Assembly (NCBI GenBank): GCA_016193065.1
Contig: JACPSX010000106.1
Coordinates: 1-23,917, forward strand
Direction: 5' to 3'
Source of the DNA: Candidatus Tectimicrobiota bacterium
Lineage (GTDB): Bacteria; JACPSX01
DNA length: 23,917 bases
This document shows positions 1,525 to 23,438 of the stretch, in pieces. A program made the translations under genes and the position numbers. Position 1 is the first letter of the stretch. Every line of letters begins with the position of its first letter. Below the pieces are notes generated by a model, which was not told the origin of the DNA, did no database searches, and worked only from the letters and a program-made list of their open reading frames with translations.

Positions 1525-3015
1525 ATGAAAAAGCTTTTCCTCATACTGGCAATATCTTCCTTGGCATTGATTCCGGCAACGCTTCTTGCATTTCCAACCG
1601 TCTACCCGACCGGAACAACGATCTACAAGCCTGAGAAGTGCTGGAATGGCTACACAGTTTTGCAGAACGCCGGAATCAAGTGGACGGAAGGCCGGGAAGG
1701 CGGCACTGTTTTGATCGACATGAACGGAAACGTTCTCAGCGAGTGGCCGAACATTCATTTCTTTCCGGCCAAGATTTTGCCCGGCGGCCACATCATGGGA
1801 TACATGGGATCCGACGGACCCGGTCACGAGTCGTCCAAGAAGCTGGTCCAGATGGACTGGAACGGCAATGTTGTCTGGCAGTTTGAGATGGCCGGGCAGG
1901 AACACGACTTCCAGAGAGAAGGAAACCCCGTCGGCTACTACGCGCCCGGCATGGAGCCCAAGGTCGACCGGGGAAACACCCTGACCCTCGTCTACAGGAA
2001 GAACATCAAGAAGCCCCAGATCAGCCCCCAGCCTCTGACGGACACGGCGTTCCTGGAAGTGACCTGGGACGGGAGGGTCGTCTGGGAGTGGCTGCAGAGC
2101 GATCACTTCGAGGAGATGGAGTTCAGCGAGGAGGCCAGGAACGCCATGTCCCGATCTCCGAGCGGAGGGGACTGGGCCCACATCAACAACATGAACGTCC
2201 TCGGTCCCAACACGTGGTACGACATGGGCGACCAGCGCTTCCACCCCGACAACATCATCTATGACGCCCGGGTTCTCAACATTATAGCCATCATCGACAA
2301 GAAGACCGGCAAGCTCGTCTGGAAGGTGGGTCCGGATTACACCGCGACTCCGGCCCTGCGGAAGCTCGGGCAGATCATCGGCCCCCATCAGGCCCACATG
2401 ATCCCCAGGGGGCTCCCGGGGGAGGGGAACATCCTGGTTTTCGACAACGGGGGCTTCGCAGGGTACGGTAACCCGAATCCCGGCTCCCCGACCGGCATGT
2501 ACAACGCCCTCCGGGATTACTCCCGGGTCATCGAGTTTGATCCGGTGACGATGGAGATCGTCTGGGAGTATTCCATGAGGGCTGCGGGCCACCTGCCGAG
2601 AATCGAGGGCCACAAGTTTTACAGCCCCTACATGAGCGGGGCCCAGCGGCTCCCCAACGGCAACACTCTGATCACGGAAGCTGCCTCGGGTCGCGTTTTT
2701 GAGGTAACTCCGGAGCGGGAGATCGTCTGGGAGTTCGTAAGCCCGTTCTTCTACCCGGGGAACCAGGGGATTGGCGGGGACCCCACACGCCAGTATCCAC
2801 CCATCAACCATCTGTATCGAGCCTACCGGGTCCCTTACGGGTGGGTTCCGCAGGTGAAAAAGCCCAAGGAAACGTCCGTGATTCCTCCTCCCAACTCAGA
2901 ATTGCGGGTCCCTCAGAGCGCGCCGGCGACGTCTGTGAAGCCCGCGGAGACGCAGAGACCCGCCAGGAAAGAGGAGAGGGAAGAAGAACAGTATCCCCAA
3001 CCCCTGAGATATTAG
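1525..3015 (+). CDS. Secreted ASST-like beta-propeller protein (paralog 2)
   Basis: The 496-aa protein starts with a Sec-type signal peptide: Lys2-Lys3, a hydrophobic core at about 4-21, and likely cleavage after Ala22. It is therefore exported, probably to the periplasm. The rest is a six-bladed-type propeller with repeated 'DMNGNVLSEWP', 'DWNGNVVWQFE', 'DPVTMEIVWEY' and 'PNGNTLITEA' blades and His-rich turns (GQEHDF, WAHINN, GPHQAHM), typical of the arylsulfotransferase family. The C-terminal tail is Pro-rich then Lys/Arg/Glu-rich and ends PQPLRY, like the upstream paralog. The ATG at 1525 is preceded by CAGGGAGC as ribosome site. A sigma-54 promoter with paired activator sites lies upstream, and the radical SAM gene follows 48 bases after the stop, so they are probably co-transcribed. 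Sulfotransferase activity is inference; a non-catalytic propeller is possible. Confidence 0.88.
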   Translation: MKKLFLILAISSLALIPATLLAFPTVYPTGTTIYKPEKCWNGYTVLQNAGIKWTEGREGGTVLIDMNGNVLSEWPNIHFFPAKILPGGHIMGYMGSDGPGHESSKKLVQMDWNGNVVWQFEMAGQEHDFQREGNPVGYYAPGMEPKVDRGNTLTLVYRKNIKKPQISPQPLTDTAFLEVTWDGRVVWEWLQSDHFEEMEFSEEARNAMSRSPSGGDWAHINNMNVLGPNTWYDMGDQRFHPDNIIYDARVLNIIAIIDKKTGKLVWKVGPDYTATPALRKLGQIIGPHQAHMIPRGLPGEGNILVFDNGGFAGYGNPNPGSPTGMYNALRDYSRVIEFDPVTMEIVWEYSMRAAGHLPRIEGHKFYSPYMSGAQRLPNGNTLITEAASGRVFEVTPEREIVWEFVSPFFYPGNQGIGGDPTRQYPPINHLYRAYRVPYGWVPQVKKPKETSVIPPPNSELRVPQSAPATSVKPAETQRPARKEEREEEQYPQPLRY

Positions 3016-4794: not shown

Positions 4795-5032
4795 TGAGAC
4801 CAGGGAAGGGTTTCACGTCTTCTTTCTCTGTATAGCGATCCAGCGAAGCAGGGTCACCGCTTGATTCGCTAAACCGCACGTCAACTGTTCTGCTCTCCAC
4901 CCTTCCTCGGGTAAGATCAAGATCAACCATCCCTATGTTCTTTTGGAAAGGGGGTGCCGCCGAGAAGCCCATAAGCCTGCATGCGTCCACTAGGGTCTCA
5001 TTGCTGGGGTTAAGTCTCTGGAGGAACGTACG
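4795..5032 (+). repeat. Upstream segment shared with 12081-12320 (small-protein family, copy A)
   Basis: From about 4795 to the ATG at 5033 the sequence is recognisably homologous to about 12081-12320. Shared stretches include the ACCAGGGA start, AGCAGGGTCA, a CTGTTCTGCTCT/CACCCT block, TCGGGAAGATCAAGAT-like, and GGTGCCGCCGAGGAG-like, in the same order. Thus the repeated unit is larger than the ORF and includes about 240 bp of untranslated upstream DNA. The rest of the gap from 4604 to 4794 shows nothing I can assign. Confidence 0.6.
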
Positions 5033-5365
5033 ATGGAACAATCTCTTGCTGATGGTTGCTTCACTCAGGACCGCAAGCACTTTTACCTCGAGTTCCTGGA
5101 ATTTGTCCACCGGTATCCCGAAATGAAGGTTTCCCTTTACGTCCCCCGAAATGACCTGCCCCTCCTGGCTAAAAAGGAGTGTTCCTCCATTGTCTGCGAT
5201 CTACTGGACCTCTGCGAATCCGGCCGGCTCACCCTTATCGGAACGATGCCCAGACCTCATCTGCTCGAATATCTTCGTGGAGTCGGAAAAGGCCAGAGCA
5301 ACCCGATCCTCTTCCAAGAGGAACGAGTAGGACGTTATACGGATTCTCACCCGGGTGTGGCGTGA
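5033..5365 (+). CDS. Unrecognised ~110-aa family protein, copy A
   Basis: The 110-aa product is closely related to the proteins at 8798-9133 (minus) and 12321-12653. Conserved features are the N-terminus M(E/D)QSL--G-F-Q-RK-FY-EFLEF, then RYPE, a LYVP-ND-PLLA block, an EC-SIV motif and LCESGRL---G-MPR-HLL-YLR. Differences between copies fall largely at third codon positions of this frame, and a GGAGGAAC ribosome site is kept before each start, so it is a real coding frame. There is no signal peptide or membrane segment. I do not recognise a known domain; the alternating beta/alpha look (SLYVP, PLLA, ESGRLTLIG) suggests a small soluble alpha/beta fold. The end differs from the other copies (HPGVA) and the following DNA is rearranged. 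Confidence 0.65.
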   Translation: MEQSLADGCFTQDRKHFYLEFLEFVHRYPEMKVSLYVPRNDLPLLAKKECSSIVCDLLDLCESGRLTLIGTMPRPHLLEYLRGVGKGQSNPILFQEERVGRYTDSHPGVA

Positions 5366-5957: not shown

Positions 5958-6047
5958 ATGATGGATCAGTCCCTCTCTGCTGGTTGCTTCACTCAGGACC
6001 GCAAGCACTTCCGCACCCGCGCCATCATGACCACACTCCCGAGGTAA
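5958..6047 (+). pseudogene. Truncated small-protein family copy (copy D)
   Basis: GAGGAACGT-ATGATG starts a frame whose first 18 codons (MMDQSLSAGCFTQDRKHF) match copies A, B and C. At about 6011 the DNA switches to unrelated sequence, which is the 3' end of the opposite-strand acyltransferase gene. The frame ends eleven foreign codons later. It is a broken fourth copy and marks a recombination junction. Confidence 0.7.
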
Positions 6048-6966
6048 AAGGCCAGAGGATCGGGTGCCCCTGCCGCCGGTACTCGCAGAATTCATACCGG
6101 AGGAACGGATAGCCTCCCCACTTCTCCTTGAACCGTCTGATCCCTTCATTTACCCCCAACCCGAGATGAATGTAACCCTTTCCACGTTCCCTGGCGAGAT
6201 TCACCATTTCGAACTTCTCCTTGAACCGTCTGATCCCTTCATTTACCCCCAACCCAAGATGAATGTAACCCTTTCCACGTTCCCTGGCGAGATTCACCAT
6301 TTCGAGAAACATGAGGTCCGAGGCGCCGGGAACATAGTGTCTCTTGGAATGGCAGCCCACCACATAGGTGGCAAAGTTCTGCGCGCCAAGCTCAACCACG
6401 TAAAAAGCCGACACCTTCCCTTCCCGGTTCCAGACGGTTAAAACCGCTGCGGTGGCCGATTTAGCTGTATACTCCTCCATACTGAGGAAAAGCCTTTCGA
6501 TTCGGGGGCCCGGTTTCTCCCTCTTCAGAAATTCAGAGATGACGTCCTGGTGGGCTTTCCCGATCCCTGTGCCCCGCACAACCGCCAGATCCCTAGCGGC
6601 CTTGTCAACGATCCGCTGGAGGGGTTTCTTCAGCTCGAATCCCTGGAGTTCCAGTTTATAGTAGGAGTCACTTTCTCTCTCCTGGCGCAGGTGTACCATT
6701 CCCGGAGGAACCTCGGGGACGATGAACCATAAGTATTCGGGTTGAAAGGTCTTCATGATGCCATGGACGACCCTCTCGAAATCCGTGCCGGCAAAGTTAC
6801 CTGTAATGGGATACCCCACAAGGATAAGCCAGTTGTCCTTTGCGAAGAAGACATAGTCATCGATGAGAAATGGTTCTCCCCGTGAGATGAGGGCCATCAA
6901 GCTCACGGTGTGCTCGGGAACATAGGCGTTGGCCAGAATGTATCTCTCTTCATCCGGTGAGATCAT
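6025..6966 (-). CDS. GNAT/FemAB-like acyltransferase with internal duplication
   Basis: The 313-aa protein shares its whole length with the gene just upstream on the same strand (AYVPEH, ISR-EP, DYV, YYKLEL/YYRLDL, HYVPGASDL, LGLGVNEGI-FK-KW-G-PF--YEFC). The C-terminal half, with 'GASDL---E', 'HLGLG' and 'RFKEKWGG', resembles GNAT/FemAB-type acetyl- or aminoacyl-transferases. Its start overlaps the upstream stop by four bases (ATGA), so the two are translationally coupled. A 31-residue block near the C-terminus is present twice because of a 93-bp tandem repeat (6121-6306). The extra copy falls in the conserved acyl-CoA-binding-like region and could impair folding. The 3' end lies against a recombination junction with the truncated copy at 5958. 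The substrate is unknown. Confidence 0.65.
   Translation of the reverse strand: MISPDEERYILANAYVPEHTVSLMALISRGEPFLIDDYVFFAKDNWLILVGYPITGNFAGTDFERVVHGIMKTFQPEYLWFIVPEVPPGMVHLRQERESDSYYKLELQGFELKKPLQRIVDKAARDLAVVRGTGIGKAHQDVISEFLKREKPGPRIERLFLSMEEYTAKSATAAVLTVWNREGKVSAFYVVELGAQNFATYVVGCHSKRHYVPGASDLMFLEMVNLARERGKGYIHLGLGVNEGIRRFKEKFEMVNLARERGKGYIHLGLGVNEGIRRFKEKWGGYPFLRYEFCEYRRQGHPILWPFTSGVWS
6121..6306. repeat. 93-bp tandem duplication inside the acyltransferase gene
   Basis: Bases 6121-6213 and 6214-6306 are nearly identical head-to-tail copies that differ at two positions (CCCGAG versus CCCAAG, and the last base). The length is a multiple of three, so the reading frame is kept and 31 residues are repeated. 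The paralog at 6963-7865 has the block once. Confidence 0.9.
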
Positions 6967-8358: not shown

Positions 8359-8808
8359 TTAATAGGACAGGACCGTAAGGAAAAGCCCGACAAGCCATGC
8401 AAGCACGAGGAAGGTCGGCAGGGTAACCGAGATGAAAGTGGTAGAGCGAATTCGAAACTGACCTTTGCGAACCTCCTCTGGAAAGGCTTCCTCGGAAGGA
8501 ACAGCGCTCGATTGCCCGGGACCCCCCGCGAGCTTCTCAATAAACCAGGCCGCGTCCAGGGCATAGAAAACCCAAAATACATCGATCACTACAACCAGAA
8601 AAACGATAAGAGATCGGACTGAAATCGAGGAGGATAGAGTTTCGCCAACGATCGCGAGAGCATTCAGCGCCAGAATAAATCCCGATCGACGTTTCAGCAG
8701 TTGAGCTTGATATTGAACAGAACGAGATTGTGGTGCAAGCTCCGCTGAAAGTCTCTCGATCAACACGCGTTTATCCCCTCCCTTATCTTTCAACTCTTCA
8801 CGCCGCAT
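8359..8808 (-). CDS. Small integral membrane protein
   Basis: The 149-aa protein has a charged N-terminus (MRREELKDKGGDKR), then three likely membrane segments: about residues 43-58 (GFILALNALAIVGETL), 66-85 (SLIVFLVVVIDVFWVFYAL) and 125-147 (ISVTLPTFLVLAWLVGLFL). A hydrophilic loop of about 40 residues precedes the last. The start codon lies inside the last codons of the upstream small-protein gene: the two overlap by 11 bases, so translation is probably coupled. No known family is firmly recognised. The layout of a short soluble head, a membrane hairpin and RRSGF before the first helix is vaguely like SLATT/Pycsar-type membrane modules, but this is only resemblance. Confidence 0.6.
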   Translation of the reverse strand: MRREELKDKGGDKRVLIERLSAELAPQSRSVQYQAQLLKRRSGFILALNALAIVGETLSSSISVRSLIVFLVVVIDVFWVFYALDAAWFIEKLAGGPGQSSAVPSEEAFPEEVRKGQFRIRSTTFISVTLPTFLVLAWLVGLFLTVLSY

Positions 8809-9133
8809 CCGGGTGGAAATCTGTAGAACTCCCTATACTTTCTTCTTGGAAGAGGATCGGGTTGCTCTGGGCTTTTCCGACTTCACGGAGATATTCAAGG
8901 AGATGAGGCCTGGGCATCATGCCCACGAGGGTGAGCCGGCCGGATTCGCAGAGATCCAGCAGGTCGCGGACAATCGAGAAACACTCCTCTTTGGCCAGAA
9001 GGGGGAAGTCGTTTTGAGGAACGTAAAGGCAGATTTGCACCTCAGGATACCGGCGGGTAAACTCCAGGAACTCGAGGTAAAAGTGCTTGCGCCCCTGAAC
9101 GAAGCAACCAACGGAAAGGGACTGATCCATCAT
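8798..9133 (-). CDS. Unrecognised ~110-aa family protein, copy B
   Basis: The 111-aa protein is the inverted full-length copy of the family also at 5033 and 12321. It keeps the block from MMDQSLSVGCFVQGRKHFY through RYPE, LYVPQNDFPLLA, ECFSIVRDLLDLCESGRL to MPRPHLLEYLRE, and ends FHPDAA. A GGAGGAACCC site lies just before the double ATG. The upstream homology is short here: CATTGCTGGGGTTAAG-like, then CTGGAGGAAC, up to about 9180. It overlaps the membrane-protein gene by 11 bases. The family's repeated presence ahead of unrelated genes (membrane protein here, glycosyltransferase at 12666) suggests a portable small gene. Function unknown. Confidence 0.65.
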   Translation of the reverse strand: MMDQSLSVGCFVQGRKHFYLEFLEFTRRYPEVQICLYVPQNDFPLLAKEECFSIVRDLLDLCESGRLTLVGMMPRPHLLEYLREVGKAQSNPILFQEESIGSSTDFHPDAA

Positions 9134-12080: not shown

Positions 12081-12320
12081 AGAACCAGGGATGGGTTTCG
12101 CGTTTTCCTCCTAAGTATAACAATCCAGGGAAGCAGGGTCATCCGCTCGATTCCCTAAACCCCACGGAAGCTGTTCTGCTCTTCACCCTCCCTCGGGAAG
12201 ATCAAGATTAACCATCCTTATATTTTTGGGGGAAAGGAGGTGCCGCCGAGGAGTCAACAAACCCGCCTAATTCCGCGAGAGTCTTACTGTGGGGGGGAAA
12301 ACCTGTGGAGGAAACTTACC
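12081..12320 (+). repeat. Upstream segment shared with 4795-5032 (small-protein family, copy C)
   Basis: About 240 bp before ATG 12321 parallel the region before copy A (5033) in the same order, with scattered substitutions and small indels. The homology begins near ACCAGGGATGGGTTTC and runs into the start codon. Nothing else is evident in the 12009-12320 gap. Confidence 0.6.
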
Positions 12321-12653
12321 ATGGAGCAGTCCCTCTCTCCCGGTTTCTTCGTTCAGGGTCGCAAGCTATTTTATACGGAGTTTTTGGAGTTTGCCGGCCG
12401 CTATCCCGAAATGAGGATCTCCCTTTACGTTCCCCAAAATGACCTCCCTCTCCTGGCCAATGAGGAGTGCTCCTCGATTGTCCGCGGTCTCCTGAACCTC
12501 TGCGAATCCGGCCGCCTTATCCTGATGGGAATGATTCCCAGGTCTCATCTCCTCGCCTATCTCCGTGAAATCCGAACAGGATTCAGAAACCCACTCCTCC
12601 CGCCAGATGAAATTCCAGGGAACCCTATGGATCCCTATCCGGATGCGGCATGA
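12321..12653 (+). CDS. Unrecognised ~110-aa family protein, copy C
   Basis: This is the most divergent full copy of the family at 5033 and 8798. It keeps the MEQSLSPGFFVQGRKLFY start, EFLEFAGRYPE, LYVPQNDLPLLA, ECSSIVRGLLNLCESGRL and IPRSHLLAYLRE. The tail is different (EIPGNPMDPYPDAA). A GGAGGAAAC site lies 9 bases before the ATG. The stop is 12 bases before the glycosyltransferase start, so they are very likely one operon. The divergence with retained frame and motif argues that the protein is functional and under selection. No known domain recognised. Confidence 0.68.
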   Translation: MEQSLSPGFFVQGRKLFYTEFLEFAGRYPEMRISLYVPQNDLPLLANEECSSIVRGLLNLCESGRLILMGMIPRSHLLAYLREIRTGFRNPLLPPDEIPGNPMDPYPDAA

Positions 12654-14589: not shown

Positions 14590-14646
14590 ATGAGCAATAA
14601 GTCGGAAGAAAAGCACGTTCCTGCGCGGGAGGACGTGTCGCCATGA
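14590..14646 (+). CDS. Possible 18-codon leader ORF
   Basis: After AAAGGAGAAAGGC an ATG opens a frame for MSNKSEEKHVPAREDVSP. Its stop overlaps the cytochrome ATG as ATGA. The good ribosome site and the coupling suggest it may be translated to feed ribosomes to the cytochrome gene, but the length is too short for any composition test. Confidence 0.3.
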   Translation: MSNKSEEKHVPAREDVSP

Positions 14647-15008
14647 AACGTTCGCTTCGCCAATTCACTTCGATCCTCTGCGCTGGCTTGTTCCTGCTCT
14701 CTTTGCTTTTCGTTTCCTCAGCCCTTTTGGCTCAGGACAAGAAGACACCGACCTCGGTAGAAAGAGGGGACAAGCTGTTTGAGGAATTGAAGTGCGGAGA
14801 CTGTCATTTCAAGGGTCACGATGGGGAGGGTCCAGGAAAAGATCTCTCGAAGGAGGGAACCAAGCGGGACCAGCAGTGGCTCATGAATTATTTGAAGGAA
14901 TTTCAGACTACCCATTCGAAGTACACGCAGGCGTTCCAGGAGAGTGAGATCCAGGATCTGAGTGCCTATCTGTTGAGTGACAGATCCTGTTCGGAAAAGT
15001 GCCATTAG
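14643..15008 (+). CDS. Small exported c-type cytochrome
   Basis: The 121-aa protein has a Sec signal peptide (MKRSLRQ, hydrophobic 9-29, cleavage near ALLAQ) and a class-I-like heme site CGDCH at about residues 50-54, followed by FKGHDGEGPGKDLSKEG. The C-terminal helix region (DLSAYLLS) is typical of cytochrome c. The only internal Met of the mature part is in QWLMNYLKEF, so it is the likely axial ligand if there is one. The protein ends CSEKCH, a CxxxCH that could be an unusual second heme site or just a disulfide pair. A GGGAGGACG site precedes the ATG. It is under sigma-54 unit 4 and precedes the molybdoenzyme operon, so it probably carries electrons in the periplasm to or from those enzymes. 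Confidence 0.85.
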   Translation: MKRSLRQFTSILCAGLFLLSLLFVSSALLAQDKKTPTSVERGDKLFEELKCGDCHFKGHDGEGPGKDLSKEGTKRDQQWLMNYLKEFQTTHSKYTQAFQESEIQDLSAYLLSDRSCSEKCH

Positions 15009-15281: not shown

Positions 15282-17531
15282 ATGAGCGGCAACAGTCTGT
15301 TGTCTCAGGATCTGACCCGGCGAACTTTTCTCAAGGCCGCGGCGGCGTGCGCGGCGGTCGGCGAGGCGCTTCTTGGAAGGCCCGCTTCCGTGCTCGCGCA
15401 GATGCCCGCTGTGTCTCCACCGACCCGTGAGGAAATCATCCCCACCATCTGCTCGGGATGTCACAACGACTGCGGCATGCTCGTGCACGTCAGAGAGGGC
15501 CTTATCCGGTCCATCGAGGGGAACCCGGATCATCCCATGAACCAGGGTTCGCTGTGTCCCAAGGGGAGGTCCATGAGCGAGCTGGTCTACTCCCCTTACC
15601 GGATCAAGCGCCCGCTGCTGCGGGTCGGCGAGAGAGGGGAAGGAAAGTGGAAGGAGATCTCCTGGGACGAAGCGCTGAATACCATCTCCGCCCGGCTGAA
15701 GGAAATCAAAGAAAAGCACGGCCCGCAGACTCTTCTGACGACCTCCGGCGCCCCCGTGTATGAAGGGATTCGCAACGCCTTCGCGCAGTTCTACTCCCTT
15801 TACGGAACGCCGAATACCTGGGGGACCGCTCTGTGCTCGTCTCCCATCGAGCTGGTCATGAGAGCCGATTACGGCTTCCGGGAAGAGAACGACTACCTCA
15901 GCAGCCCGCTGATCATCGTCTGGGGGGCCAACCCCTTTGCTTCCATGCGCCCCGGTCACAACATGGCCTACGAGGTGAGCGGCGTCTGCAGCCCCCTTCT
16001 GGAGGCGAAGGAAAAGGGGGCCAAGCTGGTCGTCATCGATCCCATCCACACGGAGACCGCGGCCAAGGCGGACATCTGGGTTCCCATTCGACCCGGCACG
16101 GACGGGGCCCTGGCTCTGGCCATGCTCCACGTCATCATCACCGAAGGCCTGTACGACGCGGATTTCGTGCGGAACTGGACCACCGGTTTTGAGGAGCTCA
16201 AGAGCCACGTTCAACCGTACACCCCCGAATGGGCCTCCCCGATCACGGACGTCCCCGCCAAGCGGATCCGCGAGCTCGCGATCCTGTACGGGACAACGAG
16301 GCCGGCGATCATCCGGACCGGCAACACCTTCGCAAACCACACGAACGGCTGTCAGGCCGTGCACGCCCTGAGTTCCCTGATCGCGATCACGGGCAACCTG
16401 GACGTTCCGGGAGGATCCGTCTGCTTTGCCGGAGGTAGAGGCGACTACACCATCCTGACCGCGTCACCGGCCACCGCGAGGCCCAAAGAGCCTCACATGC
16501 TGGCCAAGCAATACCCCCTCCAGATGACCGGCCCCGCCGTCCTCGATTCGATCTTCACCGGGAAGCCGTACACGCCCCGCGCTCTGTTCTGCTACCACAG
16601 CAACTTCCTGCTCAGCAACGTGGACTACCAGCGAACCCGGGAAGCCCTGAACAAGCTGGAGTTCATCGTGGTCGTGGACATCTTCATGACGCGATCCATC
16701 GAAGAGCTCGCGGACGTGGCGCTGCCGGACACGAGCTTCCTCGAGAGGTACGACTACCGCACGCATCCCTCGGCCCGGGGCGGAGTCGTGGCGTTGGGCC
16801 GGCCCGTGGTTCCCCCCCGGCACGAATCGAGACCCTGGTACGAGATCGAGCAGGACCTGGCCAAGAGGATGGGCTTTGCGGACAAGTATCCCTGGCACAC
16901 CGCCGAGGAATTCATCGACTACATCGTCAAGCCCTCGAAGCTCACCTTCAAGAAGCTCAAGGAGACCCCCGTCCAGTACGTGGGGAAGCACGTGTGGCGC
17001 AAGTACGAGGCGGGGCTGCTCAGGAGCGATCGGAAGCCCGGATTCAACACGCCCTCGGGCAAAGTCGAGCTGTACAATTCCACGTTCAAGAAGCACGGAT
17101 ACGATCCGCTGCCCACGTACCGTGAGCCCGCGGAAAGCCCCGTGAGCACGCCGGAGATCGCCAAGGATTACCCCCTGATCGCGGTCAACCGCCGCTCTCC
17201 GTTATTCGTCCATTTCAAGTACCGCAATCTCCCCTACCTGCGGGAAGTGGAGCCGGAGCCCGTGGTGTGTCTGCACCCGCGGGATGCCGGAGCGCGCGCA
17301 ATCCGGGACGGAGACTGGGTGATCATCACTTCGCCGCGCGGCCGCATCCGGCAGAAGGCCATAGTCACCGAGAGAGTGAAGCCCGGCGTCGCCCTGATCG
17401 ACGGAGGCTGGGGAAACTCCTGGGATCACAGGGACGCGTGTTTCAACGCCTTGAGCGACAACCTCAAGCGGGACCCCATCGGGCAGCAACCGTCCATCGC
17501 CTCCTTCCTTTGCCAGGTCGGTAAGGCGTGA
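15282..17531 (+). CDS. Tat-exported molybdopterin oxidoreductase, catalytic subunit 1
   Basis: This 749-aa protein belongs to the DMSO-reductase superfamily. A Tat signal (DLTRRTFLKAAAA, Arg13-Arg14) directs the folded enzyme to the periplasm. The [4Fe-4S] site is Cys57, Cys60, Cys64 and Cys92 (CSGCHNDC...LCPKG). The likely Mo/W ligand is Cys185 in TALCSSP, placing it with Cys-type enzymes (polysulfide, thiosulfate, arsenate, tetrathionate reductases, periplasmic nitrate reductase). MGD-binding segments such as VIDPIHTETAAKADIWVPIRPGTDGALALAML and the C-terminal domain (HPRDAGARAIRDGDWVIITSPRG) are complete. GGGAGG precedes ATG 15282. It is the first gene of an operon with an NrfD subunit 25 bases on and a second catalytic subunit. 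The substrate cannot be told from sequence. Confidence 0.92.
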   Translation: MSGNSLLSQDLTRRTFLKAAAACAAVGEALLGRPASVLAQMPAVSPPTREEIIPTICSGCHNDCGMLVHVREGLIRSIEGNPDHPMNQGSLCPKGRSMSELVYSPYRIKRPLLRVGERGEGKWKEISWDEALNTISARLKEIKEKHGPQTLLTTSGAPVYEGIRNAFAQFYSLYGTPNTWGTALCSSPIELVMRADYGFREENDYLSSPLIIVWGANPFASMRPGHNMAYEVSGVCSPLLEAKEKGAKLVVIDPIHTETAAKADIWVPIRPGTDGALALAMLHVIITEGLYDADFVRNWTTGFEELKSHVQPYTPEWASPITDVPAKRIRELAILYGTTRPAIIRTGNTFANHTNGCQAVHALSSLIAITGNLDVPGGSVCFAGGRGDYTILTASPATARPKEPHMLAKQYPLQMTGPAVLDSIFTGKPYTPRALFCYHSNFLLSNVDYQRTREALNKLEFIVVVDIFMTRSIEELADVALPDTSFLERYDYRTHPSARGGVVALGRPVVPPRHESRPWYEIEQDLAKRMGFADKYPWHTAEEFIDYIVKPSKLTFKKLKETPVQYVGKHVWRKYEAGLLRSDRKPGFNTPSGKVELYNSTFKKHGYDPLPTYREPAESPVSTPEIAKDYPLIAVNRRSPLFVHFKYRNLPYLREVEPEPVVCLHPRDAGARAIRDGDWVIITSPRGRIRQKAIVTERVKPGVALIDGGWGNSWDHRDACFNALSDNLKRDPIGQQPSIASFLCQVGKA

Positions 17532-17556
17532 CGGGGAAGGCTGCCGGGGAGAAAGC

Positions 17557-18525
17557 ATGAGCGAACTGCAAACCGTATGGAGTTGGCTGCCGGCCATTTA
17601 TTTCTTTCTGGGAGGACTGGGCGCGGGGGCCTTTTGCACCGTTGCGGTCCTGGCGCTGGTCACCGGCGAACGATTCAGGGGGACCGTACGGTTCGGTGCC
17701 TGGACGGCTACGGTGGTCACGACCGCGGGCACCCTGGCCCTGCTTCTGGACGTGGGAGCGCCCTGGCGTGCTCTCGTCCTTTTCAAGAGCTTCGTGAACT
17801 TCCAATCCTGGATGACCATCGGCGCCTGGTTCCTGTTCGCCGCCATTTTGCTCCAGGGTCTTTACGCCCTTCTCTGGACGGACGGAGTCCTGCAGTGGTC
17901 CGAGGGCTTCTGGAAGCCGCTGCGGGAGAAGCGTGCCTTGTGGCGGGCCCTGGTGGCGGCCATCGGTATCCTCGTCAGCCTCGTGGTCGCGGCTTACACG
18001 GGAATCCTTCTGGGAGTCCTCCCCTTCCGTCCCTTCTGGAACACCTGGCTTCTCCCGGCGCTGTTCACGGCGTCAGCGCTTGAGACCGGGACGGCAGTGG
18101 TCACCGCCCATGCTTCCCTGCGCGAGCAGGGCGAAGGGGTGGAGCGGCTGCGGAAAGTTCTGGAGGTCTCCATCACCGTCCTGATCGTTATCGAGGCCGC
18201 CATTCTTGGATACTACGTCCTGTCGGCGGTCGCCGGCTCCCTGGATTCGTCCCGAGCGGCGCGCTTGCTGACCCGAGGAGCACTCGGCCCGATCTTCTGG
18301 ATTCTGGTCGTCGGTTTGGGACTCGTGGTCCCCTTTTTTATCTGCGTCACCCGGTTGAGCGGACTCACCAAGCGCAGGACGGCCCTGCTGCCGGTCGCCG
18401 GAATCGCCTCGTGCCTCCTGGGCGCTTTCTCGCTCAGGTCCGTGATTCTCTGGGCAGGGATTCCGGCGTCTCTTTCCAGCCCGGGCTTGTCGCAGATCAC
18501 GGCAGGGATACGCTTCATACCCTAG
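17557..18525 (+). CDS. NrfD/PsrC-family membrane subunit
   Basis: The 322-aa protein is largely hydrophobic with about eight membrane segments. It starts WSWLPAIYFFLGGLGAGAFC, the conserved first helix of NrfD-like quinone-interacting subunits, and has the typical FNFQSWMTIGAWFL-like second region and WNTWLLPALFTASALETG. Such subunits anchor periplasmic Mo/Fe-S complexes and exchange electrons with menaquinone. GGGGAGAAAGC precedes the ATG. It lies between the two catalytic genes, so it probably serves both. There is no heme-binding pattern. Confidence 0.9.
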   Translation: MSELQTVWSWLPAIYFFLGGLGAGAFCTVAVLALVTGERFRGTVRFGAWTATVVTTAGTLALLLDVGAPWRALVLFKSFVNFQSWMTIGAWFLFAAILLQGLYALLWTDGVLQWSEGFWKPLREKRALWRALVAAIGILVSLVVAAYTGILLGVLPFRPFWNTWLLPALFTASALETGTAVVTAHASLREQGEGVERLRKVLEVSITVLIVIEAAILGYYVLSAVAGSLDSSRAARLLTRGALGPIFWILVVGLGLVVPFFICVTRLSGLTKRRTALLPVAGIASCLLGAFSLRSVILWAGIPASLSSPGLSQITAGIRFIP

Positions 18526-18558
18526 GAGCCGCAACCGGGGAGAGTTAAGGAGGAAGAC

Positions 18559-20829
18559 ATGAACGCGCGAGAATCGTCGGTTGGCTGGAGTTTGAGCCGG
18601 CGCACGTTCCTCAAGGCCACCGGGGCCCTGGGGGCGGCTCTTGCTCTGCGGGAGAGTTGCGAAGGCGTGCTTCGCAGCGGCCCCGCCCGCGCCGCCGCGG
18701 CGCAGGCTCAGCCGGAAAAGGAAACGGTGGTTCCCACCATCTGCGGGGGCTGCCATCAGAACTGCGGGATGCTCGTCCATGTCAGGGGCGGCAGGGTCGT
18801 TTCCGTCGAGGGCAACCCCGATCATCCCATGAACAGCGGCGATCTGTGCCCGAAGGCGCAGGCTGCCTCTCAGATTCTCTACGCCCCGGACCGCCTGAAA
18901 TATCCTCTCCTGCGGGCCGGCAAGAGGGGCGAAGGGAAGTGGAAGAGAATCTCCTGGGACGAGGCCCTGGACTTCATGGCCAACAAGCTCAAGGAAGTGC
19001 GGGACAAATACGGACCCATGGCCCTGGCCATGTCCACCGCGGCTCCGGTCATGCAGTGCAGCCGGACCACGTTTGTCCAGTTTCCGGCCGTGTACGGCAC
19101 TCCCAACCGGATGAGCGGCAACAACTGCTACGTCAACCGGATGCTCGCCCTGGTCGCCACCTTCGGATACCGGGCGGAAGACGACTACGACCAGACCCGG
19201 CTGATCCTGCTCTGGGGCGGCAACCCCCTTGCTTCCATGCGGGCGGGCTCCTACGCCGCATACGACGGGCTTCAGCGGCCGATCCTGGATGCCATCGAGC
19301 GCGGGGCCAAGCTGATCGTCATCGATCCCATCTATACCGACACGGCGGCCAAGGCCCAGCAGTGGATCCCCATCCGGCCGGGCACCGACGGCGCCCTGGC
19401 GCTGGCGATGCTCCACGTCATCATCAACGAAGGTCTGTACGACCGGGGCTTCGTACAGGACTGGACGGTCGGGTTCACAGAGCTTACCGAGCTCGTCCAG
19501 GACTACCCGCCCGAGAAGGTGGCGCGGATCACCTCGGTCCCGGCGGAAACCATCCGGAGCCTGGCCCGGGAGTACGCGATCACCAAACCCGCGCTCATCC
19601 ACGAGGCCAACGCCTGGGCGTTTCACACCAACGGCACCCAGACTTGCCGGGCGATCGCCTGCCTGATGGCAGTCACCGGAAACCTGGATGCCCCGGGAGG
19701 GCCGGTCTGCTTCCCCGGCTCCGCGGGCGACCGCCTCACTGTGGTGGAAGATCTGCCTCCCACCGTGCAAGTTGCCGCCAAGCCGCTGGGGGCGGACAAG
19801 TACCGGCTCATGCCCAACGGGCCGTCGGTGTTCGACGCCATGAGCTCGGGGAAACCCTACCCCATCAAGGCCCTGATCGTCTTCCACAGCGACCCCATCG
19901 TGGTCCTGCAAGACGGCAACCGCCAGCGCGACGTGTTCGCCAAGAACCTGGACTTCCTGGCCGTGATCGACATCTTCCACACCCCCACGACTCAGATGGC
20001 GGACATTGTCCTGCCGGATACCACGTTCCTGGAGCGCCTGGATTACCGGCATCACCCCAGCGCCAGAGGCGCCATCGTGGCCTTGCGCCAGCCCGTGGTG
20101 AAGCCCATGTACGAGTCCCTGCCCGGCTATGACATCGAGCTCAAGCTGGCGGCGCGCATGGGGTTCCTGGACAAGTACCCGTGGAAGAGCGGCGAGGAAA
20201 TGCTGAACCACATCCTCAAGCCCTCCAAGGTCACGGTGCAGGACCTGCGGAAGAAGCCCGTGCAGTTCATCACCGGCCCCATGGTGTACAAGAAGTACGA
20301 GAAGGGGCTGCTGCGGCCCGACAAGAAGCCGGGTTTTGCCACCCCATCCGGGAAGGTGGAGCTTTCCTCCAGCGTGTTCCAGAAGGCGGGCTACGACCCG
20401 CTGCCGAGGTACATCGAGCCGGCGGAGAGTCCGGTGAGCACGCCGGAACTGGCCAAACGGTACCCCCTGATCGGCATGAGCCGGCGGTCGGCGACCTTCG
20501 TGCACTCGAAGTACCGGAACATCCCCTGGCTCCGTGAAATCGAAAGCGAACCTTTCATCCGGGTCAACCCCGAGGACGCCGCCAAGCGGGGAATCGCGGA
20601 CGGGAACCTGGTGATCGCGGAAACCAAGAGGGGGCAGATCAGGATGCGCGCCAAGGTCACCTCCACGGTCACGCCCGGGGTCGTGCTGATCGACGGCTGC
20701 TGGTGGAAGCCGGAAAACTTGAGCGACCTGAGCTGGACCCTGAACGCGTTGATCGACATGGAGGCGCGCGACCCCATAGGAAACCTGGCCACGCTTTCGT
20801 CGTTCCTATGCGAGATCAAGAAAGCGTAG
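18559..20829 (+). CDS. Tat-exported molybdopterin oxidoreductase, catalytic subunit 2
   Basis: The 756-aa protein is a paralog of the product at 15282 along its whole length. Tat signal SLSRRTFLKATGALGAA (Arg14-Arg15); [4Fe-4S] ligands Cys62, Cys65, Cys69 and Cys97; predicted Mo ligand Cys190 in GNNCYVNR, which aligns with Cys185 of subunit 1 although the surrounding residues differ (GNNCYVN versus TALCSSP). The MGD-binding segments (VIDPIYTDTAAKAQQWIPIRPGTDGAL) are nearly the same, while the segments around the ligand and at about 270-300 residues differ, so substrate preference may differ. AAGGAGGAAG precedes ATG 18559. It is followed 17 bases later by the Fe-S subunit. Both catalytic subunits seem to share one NrfD and one Fe-S protein. 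Confidence 0.92.
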   Translation: MNARESSVGWSLSRRTFLKATGALGAALALRESCEGVLRSGPARAAAAQAQPEKETVVPTICGGCHQNCGMLVHVRGGRVVSVEGNPDHPMNSGDLCPKAQAASQILYAPDRLKYPLLRAGKRGEGKWKRISWDEALDFMANKLKEVRDKYGPMALAMSTAAPVMQCSRTTFVQFPAVYGTPNRMSGNNCYVNRMLALVATFGYRAEDDYDQTRLILLWGGNPLASMRAGSYAAYDGLQRPILDAIERGAKLIVIDPIYTDTAAKAQQWIPIRPGTDGALALAMLHVIINEGLYDRGFVQDWTVGFTELTELVQDYPPEKVARITSVPAETIRSLAREYAITKPALIHEANAWAFHTNGTQTCRAIACLMAVTGNLDAPGGPVCFPGSAGDRLTVVEDLPPTVQVAAKPLGADKYRLMPNGPSVFDAMSSGKPYPIKALIVFHSDPIVVLQDGNRQRDVFAKNLDFLAVIDIFHTPTTQMADIVLPDTTFLERLDYRHHPSARGAIVALRQPVVKPMYESLPGYDIELKLAARMGFLDKYPWKSGEEMLNHILKPSKVTVQDLRKKPVQFITGPMVYKKYEKGLLRPDKKPGFATPSGKVELSSSVFQKAGYDPLPRYIEPAESPVSTPELAKRYPLIGMSRRSATFVHSKYRNIPWLREIESEPFIRVNPEDAAKRGIADGNLVIAETKRGQIRMRAKVTSTVTPGVVLIDGCWWKPENLSDLSWTLNALIDMEARDPIGNLATLSSFLCEIKKA

Positions 20830-20845
20830 GGGAGGGAGAAAAGCC

Positions 20846-21382
20846 ATGCAAAGAGGATTCTACGTCGATACGGAACGCTGCGTGGGCTGCCGCTCCTGCG
20901 AAGTGTCGTGCAAGCAATGGAACGCCCTCCCGCCCTACGTGCTGGGCAAGACCGGACCCAGATGGCGGAGGGTCGTATCTATTGAAAGCGGGACCTACCC
21001 CGCCCCGCTGCTCGTCAACGTTTCCACGGCCTGCATGCATTGCGGCAAGCCCGCCTGCGCGGCGGTATGTCCCACGGGGGCCATTACGAAGCGCATCGAG
21101 GACGGCATTGTGGTGGTGAACAAGGACAAGTGCATCGGGTGCCGCTATTGCTCCTTCGCCTGCCCCTTCGGCGTGCCTCAATACGGCGAGGACGGCTTGA
21201 TGCAGAAGTGCAATCTCTGTCTGGAGCGCGTGGAGCGGGGGGAGGATCCGGCCTGTGTGGCATCCTGTCCGGGCAAGGCGCTGCATGCCGGCACGATGGA
21301 GGATATGTCGAAGCTGGCCTCGAGGAAAGCGGGCCGCAAGCTCGCGGGAGCCACCCAGCCGTCCATCCTGATCTCCCGGTAG
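20846..21382 (+). CDS. DmsB/PsrB-type four-cluster ferredoxin subunit
   Basis: The 178-aa protein has four Cys groups of the DmsB/PsrB/NrfC family: CVGCRSCEVSC (Cys12, 15, 18, 22), CMHCGKPACAAVCP, CIGCRYCSFACP and CNLC...CVASCP. It would hold four [4Fe-4S] clusters and pass electrons between the molybdoenzyme and the NrfD subunit on the periplasmic side. It has no signal peptide, so it would travel with a Tat-carrying partner. GGGAGGGAG precedes the ATG. It sits directly after catalytic subunit 2. Confidence 0.93.
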   Translation: MQRGFYVDTERCVGCRSCEVSCKQWNALPPYVLGKTGPRWRRVVSIESGTYPAPLLVNVSTACMHCGKPACAAVCPTGAITKRIEDGIVVVNKDKCIGCRYCSFACPFGVPQYGEDGLMQKCNLCLERVERGEDPACVASCPGKALHAGTMEDMSKLASRKAGRKLAGATQPSILISR

Positions 21383-21475: not shown

Positions 21476-22210
21476 ATGTCAGAACGTCGGGAACGAGCCG
21501 GGATTCTGGAGACCCTTCGGGACCGCTACGCCACCTATGGTTTCCTGTCCCGGATTTACCGGGAGGAACTCACCGGCCCGCTGCTGCGCGAGATGGCCGG
21601 CTCTGCGTCCTTGCAGGACGCGCCGGCCCCGGACAGCGAAGGTTTGACGATGATTCAGGAGTTCGCCGGGGGTCTACAGCGAGCCGATCTGGAAGAAGTC
21701 GAGTGGGATCTGGCAGCGGAGTACGCCGGCCTGTTCCTGAGCGGCGCCCATTCCGTATCCCCCTACGAATCGGTCTACACGAGCAGGGTGATGCAGGAGG
21801 CGCGGGACGAAGTTCTCAAGATCTACATGGGGGAGGGACTGGAGGTATCTCAGGGTTGCAACGAGCCCGAAGATCACCTCGCCATCGAGCTGGAATTGAT
21901 GCGCCGGCTCTGCCAGAAGACCATCGACAGTATGGAACAGGATGATCTCCGGACCGCCCTGCGCTGTCTGGAAAGGCAAGAGCAGTTCCTTGCCCGACAC
22001 CTTCAAGCCTGGGTCCCCAGATTCTGCGCGGACATGGAGAAGGCCGCGCGCTCGGGCTTCTACAAGGGGATCGCCAAGGTCACGGGCGAGTTCCTTGCGC
22101 TCGACAAAGAAACCATCCGTGAACTGATCGAGGCGGTGAAAGACGGGATAAGCTCCGGCGCTCCCCCGCCGCCTCCTTTGAGCCACGATCGGCGCTTCGC
22201 GCCCGGGTAG
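21476..22210 (+). CDS. TorD/DmsD-family molybdoenzyme chaperone
   Basis: The 244-aa cytoplasmic, helix-rich protein has the family pattern: an N-terminal RDRYATYGFLSRIYREEL, AAEYAGLFLSG, SPYESVYTSRVMQEA and, about ten residues later, a conserved EPEDHLAIELELMRRL. TorD/DmsD proteins bind the Tat signal and apo-enzyme and hold it until the molybdopterin cofactor is inserted. Its clients are most likely the two catalytic subunits upstream. The C-terminal 25 residues (PPPPPLSHDRRFAPG) are Pro-rich and not conserved. GAAGGAAGAGGG precedes the ATG. Confidence 0.9.
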   Translation: MSERRERAGILETLRDRYATYGFLSRIYREELTGPLLREMAGSASLQDAPAPDSEGLTMIQEFAGGLQRADLEEVEWDLAAEYAGLFLSGAHSVSPYESVYTSRVMQEARDEVLKIYMGEGLEVSQGCNEPEDHLAIELELMRRLCQKTIDSMEQDDLRTALRCLERQEQFLARHLQAWVPRFCADMEKAARSGFYKGIAKVTGEFLALDKETIRELIEAVKDGISSGAPPPPPLSHDRRFAPG

Positions 22211-22262: not shown

Positions 22263-23438
22263 GTGCCGGGACTGGAGATTGAACAAATCGTGCAGATGCT
22301 AACCTCTCTGGAGAGCCGGGCCATCAAGGTCCATGCCCTGCAGTGTTCCAAGTTGCGACACCGTCGCTCCACCTGCGCCCTGTGCGCCGACCATTGTCCC
22401 GTGAAAGCCATCACCTGGGAAGAATCACTGCAGGTCGACCCGGAGAAATGTACGGGCTGCGGGATCTGTGCGGCCGTCTGCCCGACGGGAGCTCTGGAGG
22501 CTCGGAACCCGACGAACCTGGAGCTGTGCACCCGAATTCAGGAACTGGCCAAAACCGAGACTTCCATAGTCTTCGCCTGCCCCACCTACCTGAGAGGCGC
22601 GGAGGGGGCAGACGATCGCCGTCTCCGGGTCAATTGCCTGGGGCGTCTCGATGAATCCATCCTGGCGGGGGCTCTCTCTGTCGGAATTCAGTCCGTCCGT
22701 CTGCTGGCCGGCGCCTGCGCGTCATGCCCTCACGCCATCGGCCTCGCCGTTGCCGAGCAGGTCACGCACAGGACAAACGCGCTGCTCGGGGCCTTCGGCA
22801 TCTCCGCGAGGATCCGTGTGAGCCTGGAGCCGCCTTGCGCGCCGGAGCCGCCGGCTCAGCCCTCCGCGCCGTCCGCAGGCCTCTCCCGGCGCTCCTTCTT
22901 CCGTCTGCTGACGCGGGAGACGGCCCGCAAAGCCGCGGTCGGCGTCGAGAGCATCCTGGGCATTCCAAACGCCCGGACCCAAAAACCGGAAAAAGGGGAA
23001 CTGCCTGCCGCCCTGCCCGCCAAACGGAGGCTCCTCCTGGCGGCATTGCGGCGGATCGGGAAGTCGGTCGCCGCCGAATCCCCTGCCGACGGCGGTCTGT
23101 GGGCCCGGTTCGGCTTCAAGGAAGCCTGCAACGGCTGCCAGATGTGCGCGTTTTTCTGCCCCACCGGGGCATTGAGCAAAGTTCAAGAAGGAGGAAAGGT
23201 CGGCGTCACTTTCCGGACCTCTCATTGCACCGCCTGCCGCCTTTGCCAGGAGATCTGCGATTGCGGCGCTGTAACCCTCTCCTCCACCGTGGACCTGAGC
23301 AAAGTGCTGGCGGACTCCGTGGATGTGCTGTTGATGCAGGAAGTGAAGGCCTGTCCCTGGCTGGAATCCCCGGAGGAGAGAATCAAGAGAATCCTCTCGG
23401 AAATGTTTCCAAACGGAAACAGCCGTTCGGGATTGTAA
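22263..23438 (+). CDS. Multi-cluster ferredoxin with hydrogenase-delta-like and NapF-like parts
   Basis: The 391-aa protein has an N-terminal Fe-S part (CALCADHCP at 38-45 with an extra Cys28, and CTGCGICAAVCP at 63-74). A middle part follows (VNCLGRLDESILAGALSVGIQSVRLLAGACASCPHAIG), resembling Fe-S carriers of MvhD-like hydrogenase/heterodisulfide partners. The C-terminal ferredoxin (CNGCQMCAFFCP and CTACRLCQEICDCG) is preceded by LSRRSFFRLLTRE near 206-218, the motif that starts NapF-type proteins, so this looks like a fusion. It is predicted cytoplasmic and may link the operon to another electron pool. The start is uncertain: GTG 22263 fits the frame but has a weak ribosome site; ATG 22296 is an alternative. 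Activator unit 6 overlaps its last codons. Confidence 0.82.
   Translation: MPGLEIEQIVQMLTSLESRAIKVHALQCSKLRHRRSTCALCADHCPVKAITWEESLQVDPEKCTGCGICAAVCPTGALEARNPTNLELCTRIQELAKTETSIVFACPTYLRGAEGADDRRLRVNCLGRLDESILAGALSVGIQSVRLLAGACASCPHAIGLAVAEQVTHRTNALLGAFGISARIRVSLEPPCAPEPPAQPSAPSAGLSRRSFFRLLTRETARKAAVGVESILGIPNARTQKPEKGELPAALPAKRRLLLAALRRIGKSVAAESPADGGLWARFGFKEACNGCQMCAFFCPTGALSKVQEGGKVGVTFRTSHCTACRLCQEICDCGAVTLSSTVDLSKVLADSVDVLLMQEVKACPWLESPEERIKRILSEMFPNGNSRSGL

Follow-up and report, generated by a model that had tools for sequence, protein, structure and literature searches.

Within a 23,917-nucleotide (nt) stretch of DNA from a Candidatus Tectimicrobiota bacterium (the window; contig JACPSX010000106.1 of assembly GCA_016193065.1), we identified a compact operon in which two paralogous molybdoenzyme catalytic subunits, MopA and MopB, are encoded with only one NrfD gene and one DmsB-type iron-sulfur (Fe-S) gene. 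To judge from sequence, the cluster probably specifies one quinone-linked module that serves two interchangeable catalytic subunits with diverged active sites, and so two different reactions. The four genes lie where a first-pass annotation of this DNA had placed them, closely spaced on the plus strand with gaps of 25, 33 and 16 nt, and the single NrfD gene does sit between both catalytic genes:

15282-17531, plus strand: MopA, 749 amino acids (aa), Tat-exported (twin-arginine translocation) catalytic subunit, assigned by Pfam and ligand alignment
17557-18525, plus strand: NrfD/PsrC-type quinone-reactive membrane subunit, 322 aa, assigned by Pfam PF03916 and alignment with E. coli NrfD
18559-20829, plus strand: MopB, 756 aa, catalytic subunit and MopA paralogue, assigned by Pfam and ligand alignment
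20846-21382, plus strand: DmsB/PsrB-type electron-transfer Fe-S subunit, 178 aa, assigned by NCBIfam, Pfam and Cys count

Both catalytic subunits look functional and their gene copies intact, judging by retained domains, ligands and codon-position patterns. Pfam detected Molybdop_Fe4S4, Molybdopterin, Molydop_binding and TAT_signal in each, and the E-values (1e-43 and 4e-45 for PF00384 in the two catalytic subunits, 6e-37 for PF03916 in NrfD) place the domain assignments of MopA, MopB and NrfD beyond chance. The Tat signals, [4Fe-4S] ligands and metal-ligand Cys described earlier for both proteins were all recovered: RRTFLKA occurs in each (Tat model scores of 21.9 bits for MopA, just below the 22.7 cut-off, and 24.1 for MopB), the FS0 ligands are C57/C60/C64/C92 in MopA and C62/C65/C69/C97 in MopB, and the metal-ligand Cys is C185 (TALCSSP) in MopA and C190 (GNNCYVN) in MopB, aligning with PsrA Cys173 and acetylene hydratase Cys141. 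Among 59 columns conserved across 26 other homologues, 55 are retained in MopA and 56 in MopB. Neither gene contains a stop, and identity between them at codon positions 1, 2 and 3 is 0.65, 0.72 and 0.47, which fits long purifying selection on both copies. Decay of one copy was rejected, conserved positions and codon-position bias being kept in both.

Across 708 aligned positions, sequence identity between MopA and MopB is 54%. A tree of 42 homologues places the two in a single clade (support 1.0; branches 0.50 and 0.40 long) apart from the PsrA clade (represented by a single reference PsrA sequence), DmsA/YnfE/YnfF and acetylene hydratase, and because these branches are long, the duplication is taken to be old. 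The next homologue in the same genome is 31% identical over most of its length, and the closest match to MopB outside the genome reaches 42% (386 genomes sampled across the domain); on these comparisons MopA and MopB are each other's closest relative among the sequences compared. The earlier description as two different Cys-type molybdoenzymes stands in that there are two Cys-ligated catalytic subunits, but these are tandem paralogues, and two unrelated enzyme types are rejected by their identity. Recent gene conversion was also rejected, as there is no long near-identical tract and the best 60-nt window is 90% identical. The same annotation had suggested a phylogeny and named as refuting the placement of both subunits in a single characterised clade whose one substrate is known; the MopA/MopB clade contains no characterised enzyme, and that outcome did not occur. 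Scores for the two catalytic subunits did not reach the NCBIfam cut-offs for PhsA (363 and 350 bits; cut-off 694) or the DmsA/YnfE subfamily (342 and 361 bits; cut-off 777.7), and membership of PsrA/PhsA and of DmsA/YnfE was rejected on these cut-offs and on tree position. A peptide-pattern scan covering 84,980 genomes, one per species, found no close orthologue (best 39-41%, the 39% match being measured over its best segment; relatives of middling identity may escape such a scan), and none turned up in the 386 genomes across the domain, in six further phylum searches (1 to 24 genomes each) or among the plasmids, phages and viral contigs searched, the source phylum being represented by this single species among the genomes searched.

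Divergence between the two subunits is distributed unevenly. When MopA versus MopB was ranked against 44 other homologue pairs whose overall identity is 45-65%, the FS0 domain (MopA 52-110) proved 61% identical (mean of the 44 pairs, 49%), and the 17-residue segment surrounding the ligand (MopA 177-193) only 24% identical (mean, 64%), so the difference in ligand neighbours recorded in the first-pass annotation holds after control. This low value is not an alignment artefact, because the segment aligns ungapped. One control pair was lower around the ligand (0.11), and both its members are without the ligand Cys. In known complexes, the FS0 domain contacts the Fe-S subunit. As far as sequence can tell, the active site of MopA, MopB or both is altered and the electron-exit domain kept.

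The shared subunits are those of a complex iron-sulfur molybdoenzyme (CISM) with an NrfD anchor, the catalytic subunits, the four-cluster Fe-S subunit and the NrfD residues all agreeing with this type. In the Fe-S subunit, 16 Cys make up four [4Fe-4S] motifs, as in four-cluster ferredoxin subunits, and the protein scores 167 bits with NCBIfam DmsB, below the 214 cut-off; it has no signal peptide and is presumably exported together with its Tat partner. In NrfD, Asp65 aligns with His74 of the E. coli protein and Arg294, in transmembrane helix 8, with its Arg306; an acidic or His residue has been linked to quinone protonation and the Arg of this helix to gating of proton transfer (review, PMC8076601). 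Among the sampled loci with catalytic, Fe-S and NrfD genes (L086, L089, L094, L095, L097, L102 and the second cluster of L031), each NrfD gene comes with a single catalytic gene, and the present layout is therefore unusual in the sample. The expectation that the usual operon has one catalytic subunit is thus upheld for these loci, although operons with two paralogues, such as ynfEFGH-dmsD, are known.

The gene unit reaches beyond 21382: first a chaperone gene and then a ferredoxin gene follow on the same strand, separated by short gaps. At the other end, 273 nt before MopA, there is a gene for a cytochrome c:

14643-15008, plus strand: exported monohaem class I cytochrome c, Pfam PF00034
15178-15192, plus strand: sigma-54-like -24/-12 site AGGCACGGTCCTTGC, weak, 90 nt before MopA
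21476-22210, plus strand: TorD/DmsD-type maturation chaperone, 244 aa, Pfam PF02613 and NCBIfam TorD
22263-23438, plus strand: second multi-[4Fe-4S] protein (ferredoxin), GTG start, with a weak NapF-like C-terminal part at residues 285-363

The chaperone matches PF02613 with E=1.5e-33 and scores 104 bits with NCBIfam TorD, below the 132 cut-off. The adjoining ferredoxin gene encodes three C..C..C...C motifs, an internal SRRSFF stretch, the NapF-like C-terminus and a weak FlpD match, and its product is probably a cytoplasmic maturation or electron-transfer accessory. The monohaem cytochrome c is a possible partner. Sigma-54 control of the operon was rejected: the window holds three sigma-54-like sites where 1.3 are expected by chance, a count within chance, and the site before MopA has one mismatch.

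We propose that the catalytic-subunit gene of one membrane-bound CISM operon was duplicated long ago, that the operon's TorD-type chaperone would mature both products, and that both would be exported by Tat. MopA and MopB would then dock alternatively on the one four-cluster Fe-S subunit and NrfD anchor, each forming its own three-subunit enzyme facing the periplasm. The diverged active-site loops most likely confer different, probably related substrates, with electrons drawn from, or given to, one quinone module. Two enzymes for related substrates on one quinone module, a possibility already raised in the first reading of this DNA, is the best-supported interpretation, given intact copies, a conserved FS0 domain and diverged ligand loops. 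A Tat-exported catalytic subunit combined with a four-cluster Fe-S subunit and NrfD is mostly a periplasmic quinol-driven reductase (PsrABC, ArrABC, DmsABC), and two related reductive respirations are favoured for that reason; by analogy, menaquinol-driven reduction is more likely than oxidation.

Several points weigh against this interpretation. The 44 control pairs are not mutually independent, which makes the comparison a ranking and not a p-value test, and the ligand loop may have diverged because constraint on one copy was relaxed, not because a new substrate was taken up. With 11 NrfD matches and numerous further catalytic homologues in the genome, MopA or MopB could use partners encoded elsewhere in it. 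Finally, the source is a metagenome-assembled genome that is 86% complete.

Two paralogous catalytic subunits on one module are already known. The ynfEFGH-dmsD operon of E. coli and Salmonella likewise combines two paralogous catalytic subunits, both exported by Tat, with a single four-cluster Fe-S subunit, one membrane subunit and one chaperone of the TorD/DmsD type; the gene order in E. coli (locus L108) is ynfE, ynfF, ynfG, ynfH, dmsD. A survey recognised ynf operons by their two dmsA copies (PMC4464133). YnfE and YnfF belong to the DmsA/YnfE family, have, like DmsA, a Ser metal ligand where MopA and MopB have Cys, and are 71% identical with similar ligand loops, whereas the present operon has an NrfD anchor instead and its paralogues are 54% identical with diverged loops. 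What sets this operon apart is the combination of the Cys ligand, the NrfD anchor and the strongly diverged loops; our partial coverage of the literature returned no other NrfD operon with two catalytic subunits.

YnfE and YnfF have been described as selenate reductase isoenzymes (PMC12724226), and in Salmonella the part played by YnfF in selenate reduction is small (PMC5203670). MopA and MopB could, by the same token, be isoenzymes acting on one substrate, with one dominant and the duplication serving dosage or kinetic tuning, an explanation to which the matching set of gene types and the minor role of YnfF lend some credence. We nonetheless consider it rather unlikely: the ligand surroundings of MopA and MopB are 24% identical, against 76% (0.76) in YnfE versus YnfF, though both copies are well preserved elsewhere.

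It is distinctly less probable that either MopA or MopB partners with another Fe-S/NrfD pair from the same genome, or acts as a soluble periplasmic enzyme passing electrons to cytochrome c, with the operon providing co-regulation only. The nearest outside homologues (38-42%) have no adjoining NrfD and nearly all lack an Fe-S subunit, a cytochrome c gene lies upstream of MopA, and further Fe-S/NrfD genes occur in the genome; these points are countered by the compactness of the operon and by the conservation of the FS0 domain in both copies. Similarly improbable is the furthest-reaching form of the two-reaction reading, with possibly one reductive and one oxidative reaction on the shared module and with Fe-S subunit and NrfD as an exchangeable docking platform; such a pair is what disproportionation would need. 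A catalytic heterodimer, with MopA and MopB in one complex with the Fe-S subunit and NrfD, for instance for a two-step or paired reaction, would suit an operon in which two catalytic genes share a single Fe-S gene and a single NrfD gene, with NrfD placed between them, but we judge it very improbable, as neither a docking surface nor a fusion points to a MopA-MopB complex, and the recorded precedent, in which the foreign catalytic subunit SrnA restores selenate reduction in E. coli deleted for ynfEF, with YnfG/YnfH as its proposed partners, was read as alternative use of a module (PMC12724226).

Further comparisons concern enzymes with one catalytic subunit. PsrABC/PhsABC (2vpw) resembles the module favoured here in its Cys-ligated periplasmic catalytic subunit, four-cluster Fe-S subunit and NrfD-type membrane subunit; it differs in having one catalytic subunit per module, and PsrA falls in a separate clade. 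Neither MopA nor MopB conserves the PsrA active-site residues His145 and Arg332, although the alignment is locally uncertain there. In structure models (mean pLDDT, a per-residue confidence score, of 78 and 77), the top match of MopB was PsrA (2vpw; Z 39.9, root-mean-square deviation (rmsd) 3.0 over 669 residues) and that of MopA was acetylene hydratase (2e7z; Z 37.5, rmsd 3.2 over 663 residues); for modelled structures, this shows a shared fold only and does not decide function. Acetylene hydratase is about 30% identical, and its ligand Cys141 and Lys48 are conserved in MopA and MopB; it catalyses a net non-redox hydration, whereas MopA and MopB have Tat signals and Fe-S/NrfD partners. Replacing its Asp13 with Ala abolishes activity (PMC12096430), and this residue, which follows the second FS0 Cys, is His61 and His66 in the two subunits; acetylene hydratase function was rejected because of these His residues. 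The nrfD-hybA-bisC operons with a TorD-type chaperone share the subunit types and the chaperone but are described as two to three open reading frames (ORFs) with a single catalytic gene (PMC4464133).

Other observations concern the wider genome, related loci and the rest of the window. The genome's other catalytic homologues include a QrcB-like protein and a distant TtrA-like one (contigs C25, C274, C20, C149, C34, C131 and others; loci L094-L107). In Desulfocapsa/Desulfobulbaceae loci L036-L049, related catalytic genes are apparently split into two ORFs, and at L037:9001-9600 an in-frame TGA links the two ORFs and falls exactly where the metal ligand would be encoded (RYUHSP), a situation like that in selenocysteine formate dehydrogenase. 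Elsewhere in the window, tandem arylsulfotransferase-like (PF05935) paralogues at 2-1147 and 1525-3015 precede genes of the radical SAM/SPASM and TatA families. A repeated element of ~520 nt occurs in at least three copies (4799-5323, 12084-12611 and, on the minus strand, 8798-9133) and carries a small ORF of ~110 aa ('FYLEFLEF..RYPE...SLYVP.ND.PLLA..EC') with no Pfam match. Within the minus-strand ORF 6025-6966, a near-perfect 93-bp tandem repeat at 6120-6305 duplicates MVNLARERGKGYIHLGLGVNEGIRRFKEKF in frame, and a short, mostly intergenic repeat resembling TTCGGTAAC occurs at 1307, 8002, 14424 and 23434.

The 11 NrfD matches and the many homologues of dimethyl sulfoxide reductase-family catalytic subunits suggest that the source organism is a versatile anaerobic respirer. 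The operon adds an uncharacterised catalytic-subunit clade outside the PsrA and DmsA groups, and it looks like neofunctionalisation in a respiratory complex, in which the electron-exit domain was held constant, the active site changed and both versions were kept beside one module. If this is confirmed, MopA and MopB would be a natural pair for mapping the residues that set substrate choice around a Cys-ligated Mo/W centre, and respiratory range could widen without duplication of the energy-conserving part.

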